Below, in pieces: positions 27,530 through 36,247 of a stretch of 64,000 nucleotides of DNA. A program made the position numbers and the translations under genes. The DNA lies in assembly GCF_015732285.1 (NCBI RefSeq), contig NZ_WIQU01000032.1, positions 626 to 64,625 of the forward strand, read 5' to 3'. A model generated the notes under the pieces. That model was not told the origin of the DNA and made no database searches. It saw nothing but the letters and a program-made list of their open reading frames with translations. The stretch is from Pectinatus frisingensis. Its GTDB lineage: Bacteria; Bacillota; Negativicutes; Selenomonadales; Selenomonadaceae. Positions within the stretch are counted from its first letter, which is position 1. Each line of letters begins with the position of its first letter.

Positions 27530-28108
27530 TTTTACTTTGCAAGTTATGATATAGACAGGATTGAGTCCAAGCATCATGTCATAGTTGCCGGTCTGTTTTA
27601 GACGGCTGGCTTGGATAAGAACGGCTTCATAATCATACATATCATTTTGTTTCATGTATTCTATGACAGTGCCGGCATTTTGTAAAGTTATGGCATTGGC
27701 AATTATTCTGCCGCCAGGATTAATATGGGCACTGATTACATCAAGAATTTCGATGAGATTGCCGCCGCTGCCACCGATGAAGACAACATCATAACTGTCA
27801 ATATTGTTTAGTGCATCTGGTGCAGTTCCGGAAATTACTGATACGCGATCACTTACATTGAACTTTGCTGTGTTTTGTTTTATTAGGTCCAATGCGGCAG
27901 GATTTTTTTCTACAGCGTATACATGTCCCTTATTGGCCATCAATGCCGCTTCAATGGAAAATGAACCGGTACCGGCGCCTACATCAAGTACGATGCATTC
28001 CGGAGTTATCTGGGCTTTGCATAAAGAAATTATACGGACTTCTTCTTTGGTCATAGGAACATTACTGCGGATGAATAAATTATCGTTTATACCGGGGGTA
28101 TGTGTCAT
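27527..28108 (-). CDS. cbiT: Precorrin-6Y/cobalt-precorrin-6B C15-methyltransferase, decarboxylating (CbiT)
   Basis: This protein of about 193 residues is the SAM-dependent enzyme that methylates C15 and removes the C12 acetate carboxyl in the anaerobic cobalamin pathway. It has the class I methyltransferase motif LDVGAGTGSFSIEAA, the acidic EKNP, and FIGGSGG, typical of CbiT. I start at the ATG at 28108, which overlaps the cbiE stop as ATGA; a longer frame from 28129 would run into cbiE. The gene ends the cbiD-cbiE-cbiT run. CbiE and CbiT are separate here, whereas CobL fuses them. Confidence 0.93.
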   Translation of the reverse strand: MTHTPGINDNLFIRSNVPMTKEEVRIISLCKAQITPECIVLDVGAGTGSFSIEAALMANKGHVYAVEKNPAALDLIKQNTAKFNVSDRVSVISGTAPDALNNIDSYDVVFIGGSGGNLIEILDVISAHINPGGRIIANAITLQNAGTVIEYMKQNDMYDYEAVLIQASRLKQTGNYDMMLGLNPVYIITCKVK

Positions 28109-28731
28109 CCTAACACCACCATTATACAATTATTTACAGCCGGTGCTGCAGTGGCAATAATGAGCGTCGTTTTGACAATTTTTTCATCGGGATATGAAAG
28201 ACGGTCACCTATATACACTGGAGTGTTTTGCGGCCATCCGGCATCAAGCAGCAGCATTGCGATACGCTGTGAATTATGTTCATCATCAGTCAGCATACCG
28301 ATAGTTCGTCCGGCTTCATATGATAATGAAGCGTAGTCCGGCAGTCGGCCATGCAGGCTCATTAGGTCAGCATCCTGCCATGGACGGGCAATACGAGAAA
28401 AAGCCAGCTGCATTGAACTGATGCCTGGGATGACTTCGAGTTTTTCTGCCGGAAATTCAGCACGCAGGGCAGGTAGTAATGAGTAGTAACCGGGATCACC
28501 AGATACCATTACAACAACTTCTTCTGTTGCCGATTTTTCACGAATAAAGGTAATGGCAGCCTGAATGTCGGCTGTTATGGGGGCTGTCAATTGATTCGGA
28601 GCCGCATAATCGGACAGAGCCCTTTTACCTCCGACGAGTATTTTTGCGGTGCTTATTTTTTTTAAGGCAATCGGTAGAATGTACTCTTTTGAACCAGGTC
28701 CTATACCAACGATAATTATTTTATGTTCCAA
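28105..28731 (-). CDS. cbiE: Cobalt-precorrin-7 C5-methyltransferase (CbiE)
   Basis: This 208-residue protein is a class III (tetrapyrrole) methyltransferase with the N-terminal GIGPGSKEYILP loop and the VVMVSGDPGYYSLL motif that bind SAM. It methylates C5 of the corrin ring. Its start lies inside the end of cbiD (16-bp overlap) and its stop overlaps cbiT, so translation of all three is coupled. Confidence 0.94.
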   Translation of the reverse strand: MEHKIIIVGIGPGSKEYILPIALKKISTAKILVGGKRALSDYAAPNQLTAPITADIQAAITFIREKSATEEVVVMVSGDPGYYSLLPALRAEFPAEKLEVIPGISSMQLAFSRIARPWQDADLMSLHGRLPDYASLSYEAGRTIGMLTDDEHNSQRIAMLLLDAGWPQNTPVYIGDRLSYPDEKIVKTTLIIATAAPAVNNCIMVVLG

Positions 28732-29819
28732 TGTAATTTCCTGCCTATTCTTTTTGCATTTTCGTCCATTCCTAAAATAGTTCCTTTTAGTGTAGCCATG
28801 ATAGTACCTACGGTTAAGTCGTTGTATACATGCCGCATGGAACGCTCACTGGCCCGCTGACACAATAAAGGGTAAAGTTCTTCACCTAATTTGTAATCAT
28901 TAATGACACTCATAGCTGCCTCTGTGGTTGCACAGGCGAAAATCCTTTTTATTCCAGACTGCTCCATACCCAATAAAGCGGAATAAGCGGCAAGGGTCTC
29001 CAGGCGGGCATCAGAGACTTTACTATGGGTATGGAAATTACCTGCTGCCACTTTAACCAGTTTACCAAGATGACCAAGCAATAAAACGTTTTCTAGTTTT
29101 TTTTCAGCAGCATATTCCAACATATATCCGATAAAATTACTGGTTTGAACGATGGCTTGTTGAGGTAATCCTAAAGTAACGGCGATATTTTCACCTATTT
29201 TTCCAGGAACGAAGATCTGACTGGAATGACCGGCAGCAAAAGCCACATCGATTTGCGGAGTAAGTGAATTTTTAAAAGCTTCCTCAGACATGGGACGAAC
29301 TATGCCACTGGTGCCAATTATTGATATACCTCCCTCAATGCCCAGAATTGGATTTAGTGTGCGCTGTGCCAATTTTTCACCGGCTGGTGCAGATATCGTA
29401 ATATCGCAGCCTTGCCCGGGGGATAATAATTGCCGGGCGACATTTGTCATCATTTTTCGTGGCCCCGGGTTTATAGAAGGCTGACCAACAGGAACAGACA
29501 TTCCCTCTTTTGTGACTTTGCCTATGCCTTTTCCTGCAAAAAAGTTTATAGTGCCATTTTTATTGATAGCTACCTGGGTGAAAATGGAGATACCATGTGT
29601 TATATCCGGATCATCACCGGCATCTTTTATTACCTCAGCAGTTACTTTTTCCGGTAAAATATATATCTGCTTTATTGGTATATGCAGTTTTTCACCACTT
29701 AGTGCATCAATTTCAACTTCTGAAACAATTGACTTGTTTAATAGATAGAAAAGCACGGCCTTGGTTCCTGCAGCGGCACATGAGCCTGTAGTATAACCGT
29801 TTTTCATTTTTTTTATCAT
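28716..29819 (-). CDS. cbiD: Cobalt-precorrin-5B C1-methyltransferase (CbiD)
   Basis: This 367-residue protein has the CbiD N-terminus GYTTGSCAAAGTKAVLF and motifs such as INPGPRKM and GTSGIVRPMS. It methylates C1 in the anaerobic corrin pathway. GAGGAAA lies 10 nt before the first ATG. It heads a three-gene cobalamin segment; the other cob/cbi genes are not in the window. I see no B12-box or cobalamin riboswitch upstream, although an inverted-repeat element lies at 29916-29998. Confidence 0.94.
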   Translation of the reverse strand: MIKKMKNGYTTGSCAAAGTKAVLFYLLNKSIVSEVEIDALSGEKLHIPIKQIYILPEKVTAEVIKDAGDDPDITHGISIFTQVAINKNGTINFFAGKGIGKVTKEGMSVPVGQPSINPGPRKMMTNVARQLLSPGQGCDITISAPAGEKLAQRTLNPILGIEGGISIIGTSGIVRPMSEEAFKNSLTPQIDVAFAAGHSSQIFVPGKIGENIAVTLGLPQQAIVQTSNFIGYMLEYAAEKKLENVLLLGHLGKLVKVAAGNFHTHSKVSDARLETLAAYSALLGMEQSGIKRIFACATTEAAMSVINDYKLGEELYPLLCQRASERSMRHVYNDLTVGTIMATLKGTILGMDENAKRIGRKLHWNIK

Positions 29820-29915
29820 TGGCTGGATGTTTCCTCATAATAGTTTAGTACTGATTATAGTACATGTAGATTTATAAAATTCAGTAATTATATAGTACTC
29901 TAAAAGTGATTCGTT

Positions 29916-30527: not shown

Positions 30528-30734
30528 ATGAATATCATTGAAGAAAAACGATTGAAACTTGGTTTAACACAAAAACAGATAGCGGAAATGATCGGTGTTG
30601 ATAGAACAACTGTTGGTAAATGGGAATTAGGTATATCAATACCGCGCGTGGAAAAGATATTTGCTCTATCAAAGTTGTTAAGTTGTTCTATTGAAGATAT
30701 TTATTCCTGTCAGAGGATGAAGCAATCCAATTAG
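30528..30734 (+). CDS. Small XRE-family regulator (Cro-like)
   Basis: This 68-residue protein is almost entirely a helix-turn-helix domain (LTQKQIAEMIGVDRTTVGKW), very similar in its recognition helix to the divergent repressor. GAAGGAG lies 8 nt before the ATG. It is read from the operator-controlled promoter. It probably competes with the repressor for the same sites. No phage genes follow it. Confidence 0.85.
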   Translation: MNIIEEKRLKLGLTQKQIAEMIGVDRTTVGKWELGISIPRVEKIFALSKLLSCSIEDIYSCQRMKQSN

Positions 30735-31026
30735 TTTTAGAATTATTTTATTTTAATATGTACATATCAGTTTTATTTTTTTAGATTTATTTTAAAATTA
30801 TTGATGAAATTCATTAGCATTATAAGTATTGCTATTTTATACTATAATGCTATTTTATAATAAATTCTTATAAATAGTTATATAACGTATGGTTTGACGG
30901 CAAATAACAGTGGTAATGATTGCGATAAATGATTAATTATAAAAAAAAATGTTTCCTTAATGCCAATATTAGTATATACTATAAATAAATTTTCAAATAT
31001 CAGCATACACTAAATGGAGGGCTAGT
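30735..31026 (+). other. AT-rich spacer upstream of the PEP synthase gene
   Basis: This 292-bp stretch is very AT-rich, with several TATAAT-like hexamers but no clear paired -35 box. No gene is seen. It must hold the promoter of the ppsA unit and may contain the CcpN-type operator, which I could not identify. Confidence 0.3.
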
Positions 31027-33408
31027 ATGAATAAGGAAAAACAGTTGGTACTCTGGTTTGAAACGATTGGCAGGCAGGATGTAGAAATTGTCGGAGGGAA
31101 AACAGCTTCTCTGGGAGAATTGACAGGAAAGACGTCAGTGCCTGTCCCTTATGGTTTTGCAGTTACAGCATATGCTTATAGATATTTTATGAAGGAAAGC
31201 GGTACGGCAGAAAAAATAACTGCGTTATTAGCCCGAATTACAGATATCGATGATAATCTGCAGCTGCAAAAAATCGGTGCGATAATTCGTCATGAGATCA
31301 TGAATGCCACTATGCCGGACGATTTAATACAGGCTATTAAACAGTCATATCAAATACTGGCAAAAAAAATTGGACAGACGGCTCCTTTTGTGGCTATACG
31401 TTCCAGTGCTACGGCAGAAGATTTACCGGATGCCAGTTTTGCCGGACAGCAAGATACTTATTTGAATGTTACCGGTGTGGAAGACGTAATTGCTAAAGTC
31501 AAGGAATGCTATGCCTCTACATATACTGATAGAGCTATTTATTATCGTAATAAACAGGGATTTAACCATATGGATGTGGCATTAAGTGCTGTTGTACAAC
31601 TAATGGTTTTTTCTAAGGCGGCCGGTGTGATGTTTACTATTGATGTTACTAACGGTGATGATACGCATATGATGATTGAGGGATCATGGGGATTGGGAGA
31701 ATATGTTGTTCAAGGAGTGGTCACGCCGGATAGTTATTTGATAAATAAAGAAACAGGACATGTTGATCGTAGAATTATCAATGAAAAAAAGGTAAAATAT
31801 GTCCGTTTATTGGCAGGCGGCTGTGAGGAAAGAAAAGTTCCCGAAGAATTGGTGAAAAAGTCTGTTTTGACAGAAGAACAGATACAAAAATTAGCTGGTT
31901 ATGCCATGGCAATCGAAAAACATTATGGTTGTTATATGGACATTGAATGGGCAATTGATGAACAAACAGATAAAATATGGATATTACAGGCCCGTCCGGA
32001 AACGGTCTGGTCGCGGAAAAAAGGAAAGAAGGTAATTGATGTCAGTCATTTAACCGATGAATGTAAGATTTTGGTGAAAGGAATGCCGGCAAGCCCCGGG
32101 ATTGTTTCAGGGCGGGCAAGAGTTATAAATCATCCAAATGAAATAAATCTTTTTAAACCGGGCGAAATATTGGTAACTGAAATGACAGCACCCGATTGGG
32201 TACCGGTAATGAAAAAAGCAAAGGGAATAGTAACAGATGCGGGCGGAATGACCTGCCATGCTTCAATAGTCAGCAGGGAATTGGGGATACCGTGTATAGT
32301 TGGTACGAAAAGCTGTGGTGATGCAGGGACAACAACTGTGGAAAATGGTATGATGCTGACGGTGGATGCTGTGCACGGAGTCGTTTATGCCGGCACGCCC
32401 GCTGAAGTTAAAGATAAATCGTCTGATACTGAAGGAAAACAAGTTCAGCTGCCACAGGAAATAATACCTGTTACCGGTACAAAAATATACATTAATTTAG
32501 GTGATCCTGATTTGGCAGAAAAATATAGTCGGTTGTCTTGCGATGGGGTCGGTTTGATGCGGGAAGAGTTTATCTGGACGACATATATTCATGAACATCC
32601 GTTGTATATGCTGGGTGATAATAGAGCGCAGGAGGCTGTTGATAAACTGGCTGCGGGAATAGGTGAAGTTTGTCGGGCAATGTTTCCAAGACCTGTAACA
32701 CTGCGCTTTAGTGACTTTAAATCAAGTGAATATAGGAATTTAAAGGGCGGTGACAAATATGAACCCAGTGAACCGAGCGCACTGCTGGGATGGCGCGGTG
32801 CGTCACGCTATTATGATATTAAGTATACGGAAGCCTTTAAATTAGAGATAAAAGCTGTAAAGAAAGTACGTGAAGAATATCGGCTGAATAATTTAAATGT
32901 AATGATTCCATTTTGTCGCTCAATTGATGAGATTCGTAAAGTAACGGAAATTATGGCGGCAGAGGGTTTGCAGCGGCAGGCAGATTTTAAGGTGTGGCTG
33001 ATGGCAGAGATTCCGGCTAATATTATTCTTGCAGATCAGTTTAATCAATTTGTTGATGGTTATTCCATCGGCTCTAACGACTTAACTATGCTCATATTGG
33101 GGTGTGACCGCGATAATGATGCTATTTCCCATATATTTGATGAAAGAAATCTGGCGGTTAAGCGTGCCGTCCGGCATTTAATTGAAACGGCACATAAAGA
33201 TGGTAAAACAGTTTCGATATGTGGACAGGCACCGAGTGTTTATCTTGATTTTACGGAATTTTTAATTCAAAGTGGTATAGATTCCATTTCAGTAAATCCT
33301 GATATGCTAAAAGTCACTAAAAAGAATGCAGCGCAGATTGAGCAGCGCATCATGCTGGATGCAGCTCTGGGGAAAAAGCGAGTGGAAAAAGAAAATTATA
33401 TATGGTAA
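31027..33408 (+). CDS. ppsA: Phosphoenolpyruvate synthase
   Basis: This 793-residue enzyme converts pyruvate, ATP and water to PEP, AMP and phosphate for gluconeogenesis. The N-terminal ATP-grasp domain contains VGGKTASLGEL and AIRSSATAEDLPDASFAGQQDTY-like motifs. The swivelling phosphohistidine domain has GGMTCHAS with catalytic His411 and regulatory Thr409. The C-terminal PEP-binding barrel ends with the CGQAPS motif. GGAGG lies 7 nt before the ATG. Genes for CcpN-like and PpsR regulators follow directly; PpsR is known to phosphorylate the Thr next to the catalytic His. Confidence 0.96.
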   Translation: MNKEKQLVLWFETIGRQDVEIVGGKTASLGELTGKTSVPVPYGFAVTAYAYRYFMKESGTAEKITALLARITDIDDNLQLQKIGAIIRHEIMNATMPDDLIQAIKQSYQILAKKIGQTAPFVAIRSSATAEDLPDASFAGQQDTYLNVTGVEDVIAKVKECYASTYTDRAIYYRNKQGFNHMDVALSAVVQLMVFSKAAGVMFTIDVTNGDDTHMMIEGSWGLGEYVVQGVVTPDSYLINKETGHVDRRIINEKKVKYVRLLAGGCEERKVPEELVKKSVLTEEQIQKLAGYAMAIEKHYGCYMDIEWAIDEQTDKIWILQARPETVWSRKKGKKVIDVSHLTDECKILVKGMPASPGIVSGRARVINHPNEINLFKPGEILVTEMTAPDWVPVMKKAKGIVTDAGGMTCHASIVSRELGIPCIVGTKSCGDAGTTTVENGMMLTVDAVHGVVYAGTPAEVKDKSSDTEGKQVQLPQEIIPVTGTKIYINLGDPDLAEKYSRLSCDGVGLMREEFIWTTYIHEHPLYMLGDNRAQEAVDKLAAGIGEVCRAMFPRPVTLRFSDFKSSEYRNLKGGDKYEPSEPSALLGWRGASRYYDIKYTEAFKLEIKAVKKVREEYRLNNLNVMIPFCRSIDEIRKVTEIMAAEGLQRQADFKVWLMAEIPANIILADQFNQFVDGYSIGSNDLTMLILGCDRDNDAISHIFDERNLAVKRAVRHLIETAHKDGKTVSICGQAPSVYLDFTEFLIQSGIDSISVNPDMLKVTKKNAAQIEQRIMLDAALGKKRVEKENYIW

Positions 33409-33520
33409 TGAATGATTATTATAAAACAGTTTTGAATATTTTAATGAATTTTATTAAATAAAATGAAATATGATGATATAAAGTTTATAATATAATAAAT
33501 GACTTTGGGGGGGAATAGAT

Positions 33521-34171
33521 ATTTCACTGACAGAAAGGCAAAAGGCAATTGTTGATATAGCTAAGGAAGAAGGCCCGATTACAGGGGAACAACTGGCAGA
33601 ACACCTGCATGTTACGCGAGCTGCACTAAGAGCCGATTTGGCTGTTTTGGTCATGAGCGGATTACTCGATTCACGCTCTAAAGTGGGATATTTTTATACC
33701 GGCAAAAATTTGCTATCACTTTTTACGGAAGAGTTAAATTCTATGCTTGTGCGTGACATACAGTCTGTACCGGTCGTATTGACAAAAAACGCTATGGCAT
33801 ATGATGCGGTGGTAACGATGTTTGTGGAAGATGTCGGCAGCGTTTTTATTGTCGAAGGACAAGGCAGGCTCATTGGTGTGGTATCGCGAAAAGATTTATT
33901 GAAGGCTTCCCTGGGACCAGGAGATGATTTGGCTAAAATACCGGTTCAGATGGTTATGACGCCGTTAACCAAGCTGATTGTCACTGAACCGGGTGAGTCA
34001 GTTGTGATGGCTGCCCGCAAAATTATTGATAATGAAATTGATGCCTTGCCGGTTGTAAAAGTTTCGGCCGGCATTGAACGTTCCTATGAAATAGTCGGTC
34101 GTCTTACAAAAACAAATTTAGCACGTTTGATAGTAGATTTGTCTGAAGGTAAAAGGGGGTACTCATCATAG
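33521..34171 (+). CDS. ccpN: CcpN-like HTH-CBS transcriptional regulator, apparent ATT start
   Basis: This protein of about 216 residues has an N-terminal HTH (GPITGEQLAEHLHVTRAALR) followed by VGYFYTGK and two CBS domains, the architecture of CcpN, the gluconeogenesis repressor of Bacillus. CBS domains probably sense adenine nucleotides. The HTH requires the frame to begin before the TTG at 33638. Upstream in frame there is no ATG, GTG or TTG before a stop. A seven-G ribosome-binding site (33507-33513) is 7 nt from an ATT at 33521, which fits the CcpN N-terminus exactly. A CTG at 33527 is the alternative. It overlaps ppsR. Confidence 0.85.
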   Translation: MSLTERQKAIVDIAKEEGPITGEQLAEHLHVTRAALRADLAVLVMSGLLDSRSKVGYFYTGKNLLSLFTEELNSMLVRDIQSVPVVLTKNAMAYDAVVTMFVEDVGSVFIVEGQGRLIGVVSRKDLLKASLGPGDDLAKIPVQMVMTPLTKLIVTEPGESVVMAARKIIDNEIDALPVVKVSAGIERSYEIVGRLTKTNLARLIVDLSEGKRGYSS

Positions 34172-34989
34172 CGGGATTACCGGTTATTTATATTGTTGCC
34201 GAGTCCTTGGGAGAAACGGCGGAAGCTGTTGTCAGGGCTGCTGCCAGTCAGTTCGACTCGGGAAATTTTGAAGTTGTTCGCGTGCCCTATGTCGATTCAC
34301 CGGAGCAGATTGATAATACACTTAAAGAAGCGGCAAAACGCTGCGCGTTTATCTGCCACACTCTTATCTCTCCGGAATTAAGGCAGACAATCAGTAAATT
34401 AGCTGAGCAGTATAATGTAATTACAGTAGACATTTTAGGACCGATGCTCCAGGCAGTACAAAAGCTTTCCGGAATGCAGCCGAAAAATAAACCAGGATTG
34501 ACACATTTATTAAATCGGGATTATTATCGGCGTATTGAAGCTATTGAATTTGCTGTGAAATATGATGATGGCAAAAGTGCCTTTGGTTTGTTAAAAGCAG
34601 ATTTAGTACTTATAGGAGTGTCGCGTACTTCGAAAACACCTTTAAGTATGTATTTGGCGCATAAAGGCCTTAAGGTGGCCAACGTGCCGCTTGTACCGGG
34701 CATTGCTCCGCCGGAAGAGTTGTTTCATATACCAGCGGAGAAAATAGTAGGACTTATTGTCGATCCGGCAAAACTCAATGAGATCCGCACGGAAAGGCTC
34801 AAGGCGATTGGCTTGATGCCGGATGCCAGCTATGCCAAACTGGACTGCATTTCTGAAGAAATAGAATATTCAAAGACCATCATGCATCAGTTGCAATGCA
34901 AGGTAATAAATGTTTCCAATCGTGCTATTGAAGAAACGGCGCATATGATACTCGAGCACCATGGTGGATTTACCGAAGATATTACGTGA
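34168..34989 (+). CDS. ppsR: PEP synthase regulatory kinase/phosphorylase (PpsR), apparent ATA start
   Basis: This protein of about 273 residues (DUF299 family) inactivates PEP synthase by ADP-dependent phosphorylation and reactivates it by phosphate-dependent dephosphorylation. Motifs are VAESLGETAEAVV at the N-terminus, EFAVKYDDGK, and the P-loop-like GVSRTSKTPLS. The family starts about 6 residues before the IYIV strand, where no ATG, GTG or TTG exists. GGGGG at 34155-34159 is 8 nt from ATA (34168), overlapping the previous stop as ATAG. A TTG at 34207 would delete the first strand. It is coupled to the ccpN-like gene. Confidence 0.88.
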   Translation: MAGLPVIYIVAESLGETAEAVVRAAASQFDSGNFEVVRVPYVDSPEQIDNTLKEAAKRCAFICHTLISPELRQTISKLAEQYNVITVDILGPMLQAVQKLSGMQPKNKPGLTHLLNRDYYRRIEAIEFAVKYDDGKSAFGLLKADLVLIGVSRTSKTPLSMYLAHKGLKVANVPLVPGIAPPEELFHIPAEKIVGLIVDPAKLNEIRTERLKAIGLMPDASYAKLDCISEEIEYSKTIMHQLQCKVINVSNRAIEETAHMILEHHGGFTEDIT

Positions 34990-35005
34990 CAGAACCGCCG
35001 CATAT

Positions 35006-35037
35006 AAAAAACTTCACGGCATACCGTGAAGTTTTTT
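35006..35037. terminator. Bidirectional terminator between ppsR and the aldo/keto reductase gene
   Basis: AAAAAACTTCACGG and CCGTGAAGTTTTTT pair around a CATA loop, with A- and T-runs on both sides, between convergent genes. Confidence 0.92.
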
Positions 35038-35101
35038 TATTGAGAATCTTATTTCAGATTGGAATGGTGGATAGCGGTGTTTTGCCGGAGTCGGTAAAAC
35101 G

Positions 35102-36247
35102 TCAGGCCGGGTCTGCCGATTCGAAAACAGCGGCCACTTCTTTGAGCCAGCCGGTAATTTCGATATGCTGCGGGCACATTTTTTCGCATTGCCGGCAGTC
35201 AATGCAGTCGGAGGCCTTGCCGAAGGTTTTGGCATAATTATTGTAATATACAGATTCGATGCTGAGTGCAGGCTTGTTTGGCATCATGGAATGCTGTTTC
35301 TTGGTGTTGTACAGTGCAAAATAATTGGGGATGGCTATATTTTTCGGGCAGCCCTTCACACAATATTGGCAGGCTGTGCAGGGAATGGTAATGGATTCGT
35401 TGATGATATTGACAGCTTTGTTTATTACCTGATATTCTTCAGCTGACATTGGTTGAAAGTCCTGCATATAACCAACATTGTCTTTCAGCTGTTCCAGACT
35501 TGACATGCCGGAAAGCACCATCATGACACCTTGTAGGCTTGCTGCATAGCGGATTGCCCAGGAAGACGCCGACAGTTCCGGCCGGTGCCGCCGGAACAGC
35601 TCTGCCGCTTTTTCCGGTATATTTGCCAGCATGCCACCCTTCACGGGTTCCATGACGACAATCGGTTTGTTGTGTTTTCTGGCCGTTTCATAGCATTTTC
35701 GTGACTGAATGCTTTCATTTTCCCAATCCAGATAATTTATCTGCAGTTGAACAAAATCCATTTCCGGGTGTGCTGTTAATATCTCATCTAGCAAAACCGC
35801 TCTGTCGTGGAAGGAAAAGCCGATATTTTTAACCTTGCCGGCCTTTTTCTTTTCGGTAATAAATTTGAAGCTGTCAAATTTCTGAGCTATTTTGTAATTT
35901 TCAATTCCCAGGTTGTGCAAAAGGTAATAATCAAAATACTCAACTCCGCATTTATTTAATTGATCATTGAAAATGCGCTCCTGATCATCAGGGGTCTTGA
36001 GCATCATCGTCGGTAGCTTTGTCGCTAACGTGAAGCTGTTGCGGCTGTGGCGTTTTACAAGCGCTTCACGCACGGCTGTTTCACTTTGAAAGGCATGATA
36101 CATCCAGGCTGTATCGAAGTAGGTAAAGCCCTTCTTCAAAAATAAATCGACCATTTTTTCAATCTGACTCATATCGAAGCTTGTCGGGTCGTTTTGGTTC
36201 TTCAGCGGCAGACGCATAAAGCCGAAACCAAGTTTTTTTGTAGTCAT
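35102..36247 (-). CDS. Aldo/keto reductase with C-terminal 2x[4Fe-4S] domain
   Basis: This protein of about 381 residues has an AKR barrel with the Asp/Tyr (FDTAWMYH), Lys (ATKLPT) and His (YYLLHNLG) catalytic tetrad. Its ferredoxin-type tail has two clusters ([12 protein letters not shown] and [12 protein letters not shown]). Such fusions are common in anaerobes, and their substrate is generally unknown. I start at the ATG at 36247, with GGAGG 8 nt upstream; an ATG 15 nt earlier lies before that site. A promoter with a 19-bp spacer and a palindrome (36366-36396) indicates activation by a MerR-family protein. Confidence 0.88.

Follow-up and report, generated by a model that had tools for sequence, protein, structure and literature searches.

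Two adjacent regulatory genes of Pectinatus frisingensis, ccpN and ppsR, are very probably translated from the codons AUU (33521) and AUA (34168), and inefficiently so, which would keep both regulators scarce. As judged from conservation across related loci, the AUN starts of both genes are well supported. All coordinates refer to the window, the whole stretch of 64,000 nucleotides that was analysed, which is part of a 2.92-Mb genome (G000). Judged by ccpN, its nearest named relatives found were Pectinatus haikarae and P. cerevisiiphilus, with 79-80% identity at the protein level. The gene order is ppsA, a gap of 112 nt, ccpN and then ppsR, which overlaps ccpN, and the features discussed below are as follows.

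31027 to 33408, forward strand: ppsA, phosphoenolpyruvate (PEP) synthase (NF005057, 1028 bits against a cut-off of 598; TIGR01418, 959 bits against 739.75)
33463 to 33491, forward strand: weak promoter-like match, ATGAAA-17-TATAAT, in the gap between ppsA and ccpN
33507 to 33513, forward strand: Shine-Dalgarno (SD)-like run GGGGGGG of ccpN (aligned spacing 7, duplex score 15)
33521 to 33523, forward strand: ATT, predicted start codon of ccpN (start column in relatives; position 1 of NF053704)
33521 to 34171, forward strand: ccpN, regulator of the CcpN family with HTH_11 and CBS domains (NF053704, 268.1 bits against a cut-off of 260)
34152 to 34160, forward strand: SD of ppsR, AAAGGGGGT, within the end of ccpN (duplex score 21, aligned spacing 8)
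34168 to 34170, forward strand: ATA, predicted start codon of ppsR, which overlaps the stop codon of ccpN (ATAG); from the preceding in-frame stop to the conserved motif the frame is free of canonical codons
34168 to 34989, forward strand: ppsR, kinase/pyrophosphorylase regulator of PEP synthase or PPDK (PF03618, 329.5 bits against a cut-off of 23.5; NF003742, 314.1 bits against 225)

The ccpN product exceeded the curated cut-off of its family profile and contained both the helix-turn-helix (HTH) and the CBS domains, and the ppsR product lay above the cut-offs of both PF03618 and NF003742. The latter protein fell below the cut-off of the PEP synthetase regulator PpsR equivalog NF049928 (151.8 versus 350), hence the name PpsR denotes only the family in this text. 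No PPDK match over cut-off was found in the same genome, which makes PpsA the likely target of PpsR. CcpN and PpsR are both likely to hold back an enzyme of sugar synthesis. In the search of relatives, the genomes with a strong ccpN match and those with a ppsR match over cut-off were the same 23 of 60 (G000-G059). One genome of the same genus (G001) encoded neither ccpN nor ppsR, as was the case for most genomes sampled from its family.

The 112 nt between the end of ppsA and the ATT at 33521 are AT-rich and contain the promoter-like match listed above, hence a single operon with ppsA is only putative. Promoter-like matches in the scanned region were not above chance, with 12 observed and 13.5 expected. 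When the PpsA of the window was used as a query against 126 longer sequences (110 of them distinct ccpN loci, with flanks of mostly 1.5-3 kb), a PpsA match was found beside ccpN in 24, 19 of which were distinct, the window included. An RNA regulatory element at the starts was considered and dropped, as no Rfam match at gathering score was found in 30700-35200 and the folds of the start regions were no stronger than those of shuffled sequences (z 0.00 and 1.07).

Within the window, the open frame of ccpN begins at 33503, following a stop at 33500-33502, and its first in-frame ATG, GTG or TTG is the TTG at 33638, inside the helix-turn-helix; position 1 of the NCBIfam profile NF053704 falls on the ATT codon at 33521. 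The ppsR frame opens at 34153, and its first canonical codon, TTG 34207, lies past the conserved IYIVAES motif. The original prediction that neither gene has an ATG, GTG or TTG giving the family N-terminus was thus borne out, and its two AUN codons had been placed correctly, the ATA at 34168 overlapping the ccpN stop TAG at 34169-34171. It had further described a strong SD 7-8 nt before each AUN codon. This spacing held for both genes, with the ATA lying 8 nt after GGGGG at 34155-34159, whilst the strength held for ppsR (21) but not for ccpN (15), since only four of 120 AUN ccpN loci had a lower duplex score.

An SD scan of the 53 open reading frames of at least 90 codons in the window identified three in which an AUN codon beat every NTG codon (ATG, GTG or TTG). 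Two of these were ccpN and ppsR, near the beginning of the frame, and the third (28719-29837, codon 77) was internal and looks like chance. With ccpN and ppsR picked out among 53 frames, the AUN pattern is more than chance. An open frame on the reverse strand at 28108-28848, which overlaps the neighbour at 28719-29837, has its first canonical codon 38 codons in, and a frameshift or an unusual start is possible there.

The start regions were compared across 200 loci retrieved by searches of relatives, the class, the phylum and named genomes, seven of which (L026-L032) were weak matches outside the family. The loci of the window's own genome (L001-L003) were excluded and repeats were removed, giving 173 distinct ccpN and 172 distinct ppsR frames, window included. 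The ccpN start column was placed in 172 loci, four of them by hand-given motifs, and one locus at a contig edge (L093) was dropped. The column contained ATC (57 loci), ATT (36), ATA (27), TTG (23), ATG (18), GTG (6) and other codons (5), amounting to AUN in 120 of 172 and ATG, GTG or TTG in 47. The five loci with other codons, from families f4 and f148, had an ATG (3) or GTG (2) exactly one codon downstream. AUN codons were present in 68 of 85 coded families, and the aligned spacing from SD to AUN was 8 in 84 of the 120 AUN loci. On a FastTree tree of CcpN, 17 changes between AUN and NTG were counted, compared with 34-45 in 100 label shuffles.

All 23 leucine codons in the ccpN column were TTG and all six valine codons were GTG, against a background in the same genes of 19% TTG among leucine codons and 27% GTG among valine codons (P about 9e-21 with rows treated as independent, a figure that overstates independence because the rows are related). 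Neither GTA, GTC, GTT, CTN nor TTA occurred in the column in any of the 172 loci, though these would be expected of a plain residue column. These absences bear on an alternative in which ccpN really starts at a GTG nine bases upstream, the annotated start in Bacillus, so that the isoleucine of the column would be an ordinary fourth residue and the window would have lost that GTG. A canonical codon was indeed located no more than 12 codons upstream in 87 of the 120 AUN loci, and among these the in-frame GTG three codons upstream (at -9) was counted 73 times. However, this GTG belongs to the extended SD (AAGGnGGTGA), and the remaining SD would lie directly against it. Furthermore, a GTG occupied the SD position in 94 loci and was out of frame in 24 of them, where it cannot be the start, and 32 of the 120 AUN loci, window included, lacked any canonical codon from the in-frame stop up to the AUN. 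In S. aureus, moreover, Ribo-Ret puts ccpN initiation at AUA (PMC13009471, section 10). The upstream GTG was rejected on the strength of the out-of-frame and absent cases and is very unlikely to be the real start, leaving the AUN codon as the preferred one. The GTG nine bases before the AUN forms part of the extended SD in many ccpN leaders, such as those of L081, L070 and L039, and an annotation beginning at it would add three false residues to CcpN.

According to the original prediction, relatives with ATG, GTG or TTG at the same place would point to sequence error. Such relatives were found for ccpN (47 of 172), but ATT is kept in all three ccpN-bearing genomes of the same genus (L004, L005 and L006), hence the NTG codons of other relatives are no sign of error in the window. 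One error in particular was considered, namely that the run of seven G at 33507-33513, which is of an error-prone kind, is one base too long, in which case ATG 33499 would join the ccpN frame; in the same-genus locus L004, too, a G run is preceded by an out-of-frame ATG. In L005 and L006, however, the upstream 36 nt are free of ATG and the SDs differ, yet the column is still ATT, and ppsR, which is independent of the run, shows the same feature. A frameshift in the run was rejected on these same-genus assemblies and is extremely improbable, and conservation across relatives makes sequencing error unlikely in general. Seven loci of family f143 (L155, L159, L162, L163, L164, L169 and L174) have a TTG start of ccpN, which in five of them is immediately preceded by an in-frame TGA; ppsR was called AUN in eight of nine loci of this family.

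The ppsR starts were assigned with an SD-anchored caller, for which the winning class required a score of at least 12 and a lead of at least 4. With one row lacking the motif dropped, 171 loci were scored, resulting in 98 AUN calls (53 ATA, 30 ATT and 15 ATC), 59 NTG and 14 ambiguous. In 46 of the 171 frames the stretch from the stop up to the conserved motif contained no canonical codon, and all 46 were called AUN. The aligned spacing from SD to AUN was 8 in 71 of the 98 AUN loci; AUN was found in 46 of 78 coded families, and in 39 families both genes had AUN. The ppsR tree, also built with FastTree, required 19 changes between AUN and NTG, compared with 41-53 in shuffles. The AUN codon is therefore conserved in relatives for both genes, as the alignment proposed with the original prediction was meant to establish. 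AUN is not obligatory for either gene, with NTG in 47 of 172 ccpN and 59 of 171 ppsR loci, and among named Bacillaceae ppsR had a canonical start in five of six loci, the other being ambiguous.

Two further genes were run through the same caller as controls. For rex (31 loci), 24 calls were NTG, six ambiguous and one AUN, and for infC (44 loci), 36 were AUN, three ambiguous and five lacked the motif. The infC start column was placed in 36 of the 44 loci and was AUN in all; L219 was mis-anchored there, and its ATT was seen separately. In the genome under study, infC (L261, G000:C60:187526-188400) starts with ATT after AAAGAGGTG, reading AAAGAGGTGATTTGAT-ATT-AGT with an SD layout as in ccpN and ppsR, hence three genes of this genome share the combination of SD and AUN. 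The start classes of ccpN and ppsR at the same locus (AUN/AUN 73, AUN/NTG 35, NTG/AUN 24 and NTG/NTG 19) showed no significant association (Fisher p = 0.19), and a strict rule tying the two classes together was rejected on this ground.

It is also improbable, though marginally less so than a start at the upstream GTG, that translation begins at another codon, be it CTG 33527 or TTG 33638 for ccpN, or TTG 34207 or ATC 34165 for ppsR. CTG is a weak initiator codon in bacteria, which would allow CTG 33527, and ATC 34165 is itself an AUN codon, 5 nt after the SD. Against this, only 24 of 172 loci have CTG as codon 3 of ccpN, compared with 74 that have TTA and 36 that have CTT, whilst TTG 33638 would cut into the helix-turn-helix and TTG 34207 would fall past the conserved motif. 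For ppsR, the modal aligned spacing of 8 fits ATA and not ATC 34165; relatives have ATA, ATT or ATC, or else ATG, at the ATA column, and the ATG of L012, L066 and L163 stands exactly there.

The AUA of ppsR might instead merely follow from its overlap with the ccpN stop. Ribosomes terminating on ccpN would then reinitiate at ppsR, and the start codon as such would not be under selection. An overlap with that stop was found in 44 of the 97 AUN ppsR loci in which the ccpN stop was measurable; the window and 12 others begin one base before the first base of the stop codon (ATAG type), and 21 loci begin five bases before it. However, in 36 of the 97 the start lies 8-22 bases downstream of the first base of the stop, and two stand-alone copies of ppsR away from ccpN (L282 and L285) keep the SD and ATA GCT, L285 having no canonical codon. 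The ATAG overlap alone is thus an insufficient explanation, and we regard this alternative as unlikely, if less so than the preceding ones; a start at ATA in its own right remains the preferred reading. The genomes with these stand-alone, second copies (G041 and G059) also have ccpN-linked copies of ppsR (L017 and L018), which were called TTG.

Non-canonical initiation of ccpN has a precedent in the work of Kohl et al. 2026 (PMC13009471), the consulted part of which describes initiation of S. aureus ccpN and infC at AUA, as located by Ribo-Ret, and conservation of the ccpN start and its extended SD between S. aureus and B. subtilis. The ccpN genes of those two species belong to the gene family studied here and have the same kind of start, an AUN after an extended SD. 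The scope differs in that their study covers S. aureus, with conservation to B. subtilis, and ours an ATT in a Negativicute, with AUN in the 68 of 85 families given above. The article also cites the AUU start of infC and reports non-canonical starts with reduced reporter yield for S. aureus cvfC1 (AUU) and citZ (AUA) (PMC13009471, section 10); these are other genes than ccpN and ppsR, and the conservation reported for them is limited to staphylococci or to a strain lineage. None of the terms ppsR, yqfL and dikinase appears in the text of that article, and none of the matches listed from the open-licence PMC literature, as far as their consulted text extends, reports an AUN start of ppsR/YqfL/DUF299. 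Within these sources, the AUN start of ccpN is known in kind, the finding that the neighbouring ppsR is another conserved AUN gene seems to be new, and the spread of AUN starts over Negativicutes and other families appears new.

In E. coli, infC, which encodes IF3, has an AUU start and is autoregulated. The AUN follows an SD there, as does the ATT in infC of the present genome, but infC encodes the discriminating factor itself, whereas CcpN and PpsR are metabolic regulators for which IF3 control is hypothetical. Binns and Masters are said to have described in 2002 an AUU start that limits expression of E. coli pcnB; this is likewise an AUU start with low expression, but in another gene and another phylum. 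To our knowledge, few conserved AUN starts have been recognized, namely those of infC, pcnB and now ccpN. The ccpN and ppsR genes of the window have no canonical codon giving the family N-terminus, and their AUN codons are properly spaced from the SD and kept in relatives with a modal spacing of 8. This makes ppsR a new member, and ccpN a broad extension, of the small class of genes with conserved AUN starts.

We propose that the SD places the 30S subunit at the AUN codon, with which fMet-tRNA would pair imperfectly; initiation would then be inefficient, and both brakes on PEP synthesis would be scarce. The lower expression put forward in the original prediction finds support in published reporters of a homologue, S. 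aureus ccpN, in which AUA yielded approximately 10% (RPMI) up to 30% (BHI) of AUG (PMC13009471); these values come from S. aureus and not from this organism, for which a low yield of CcpN and PpsR is expected by analogy. Selection seems to maintain the AUN class, judging from the third base, which varies between T, C and A while ATG is uncommon. Like infC in the same genome, ccpN and ppsR may be exposed to changes in start-codon discrimination, and control by IF3 or by initiator-tRNA supply is speculative. It is a tentative and rather doubtful suggestion that Bacillota and Negativicutes share an old regulon defined by AUN starts and made up of infC, ccpN and ppsR, in which IF3 activity or initiator-tRNA supply sets the level of both brakes. 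If true, such a regulon would couple the stringency of translation initiation to gluconeogenesis, and IF3 activity or initiator-tRNA supply (one-carbon state) would tune one transcriptional and one post-translational brake on PEP synthesis, a link between start-codon stringency and central metabolism that is open to test.

Gene finders limited to ATG, GTG and TTG would misplace starts of this type, giving either three extra residues, where the GTG of the SD is taken, or lost N-termini. Now that ppsR, the neighbouring gene for a post-translational regulator acting at the same step, joins the class, weak initiation seems to be built into the way PEP synthesis is controlled. The weak starts, which many related bacteria have as well, probably keep both regulators scarce.
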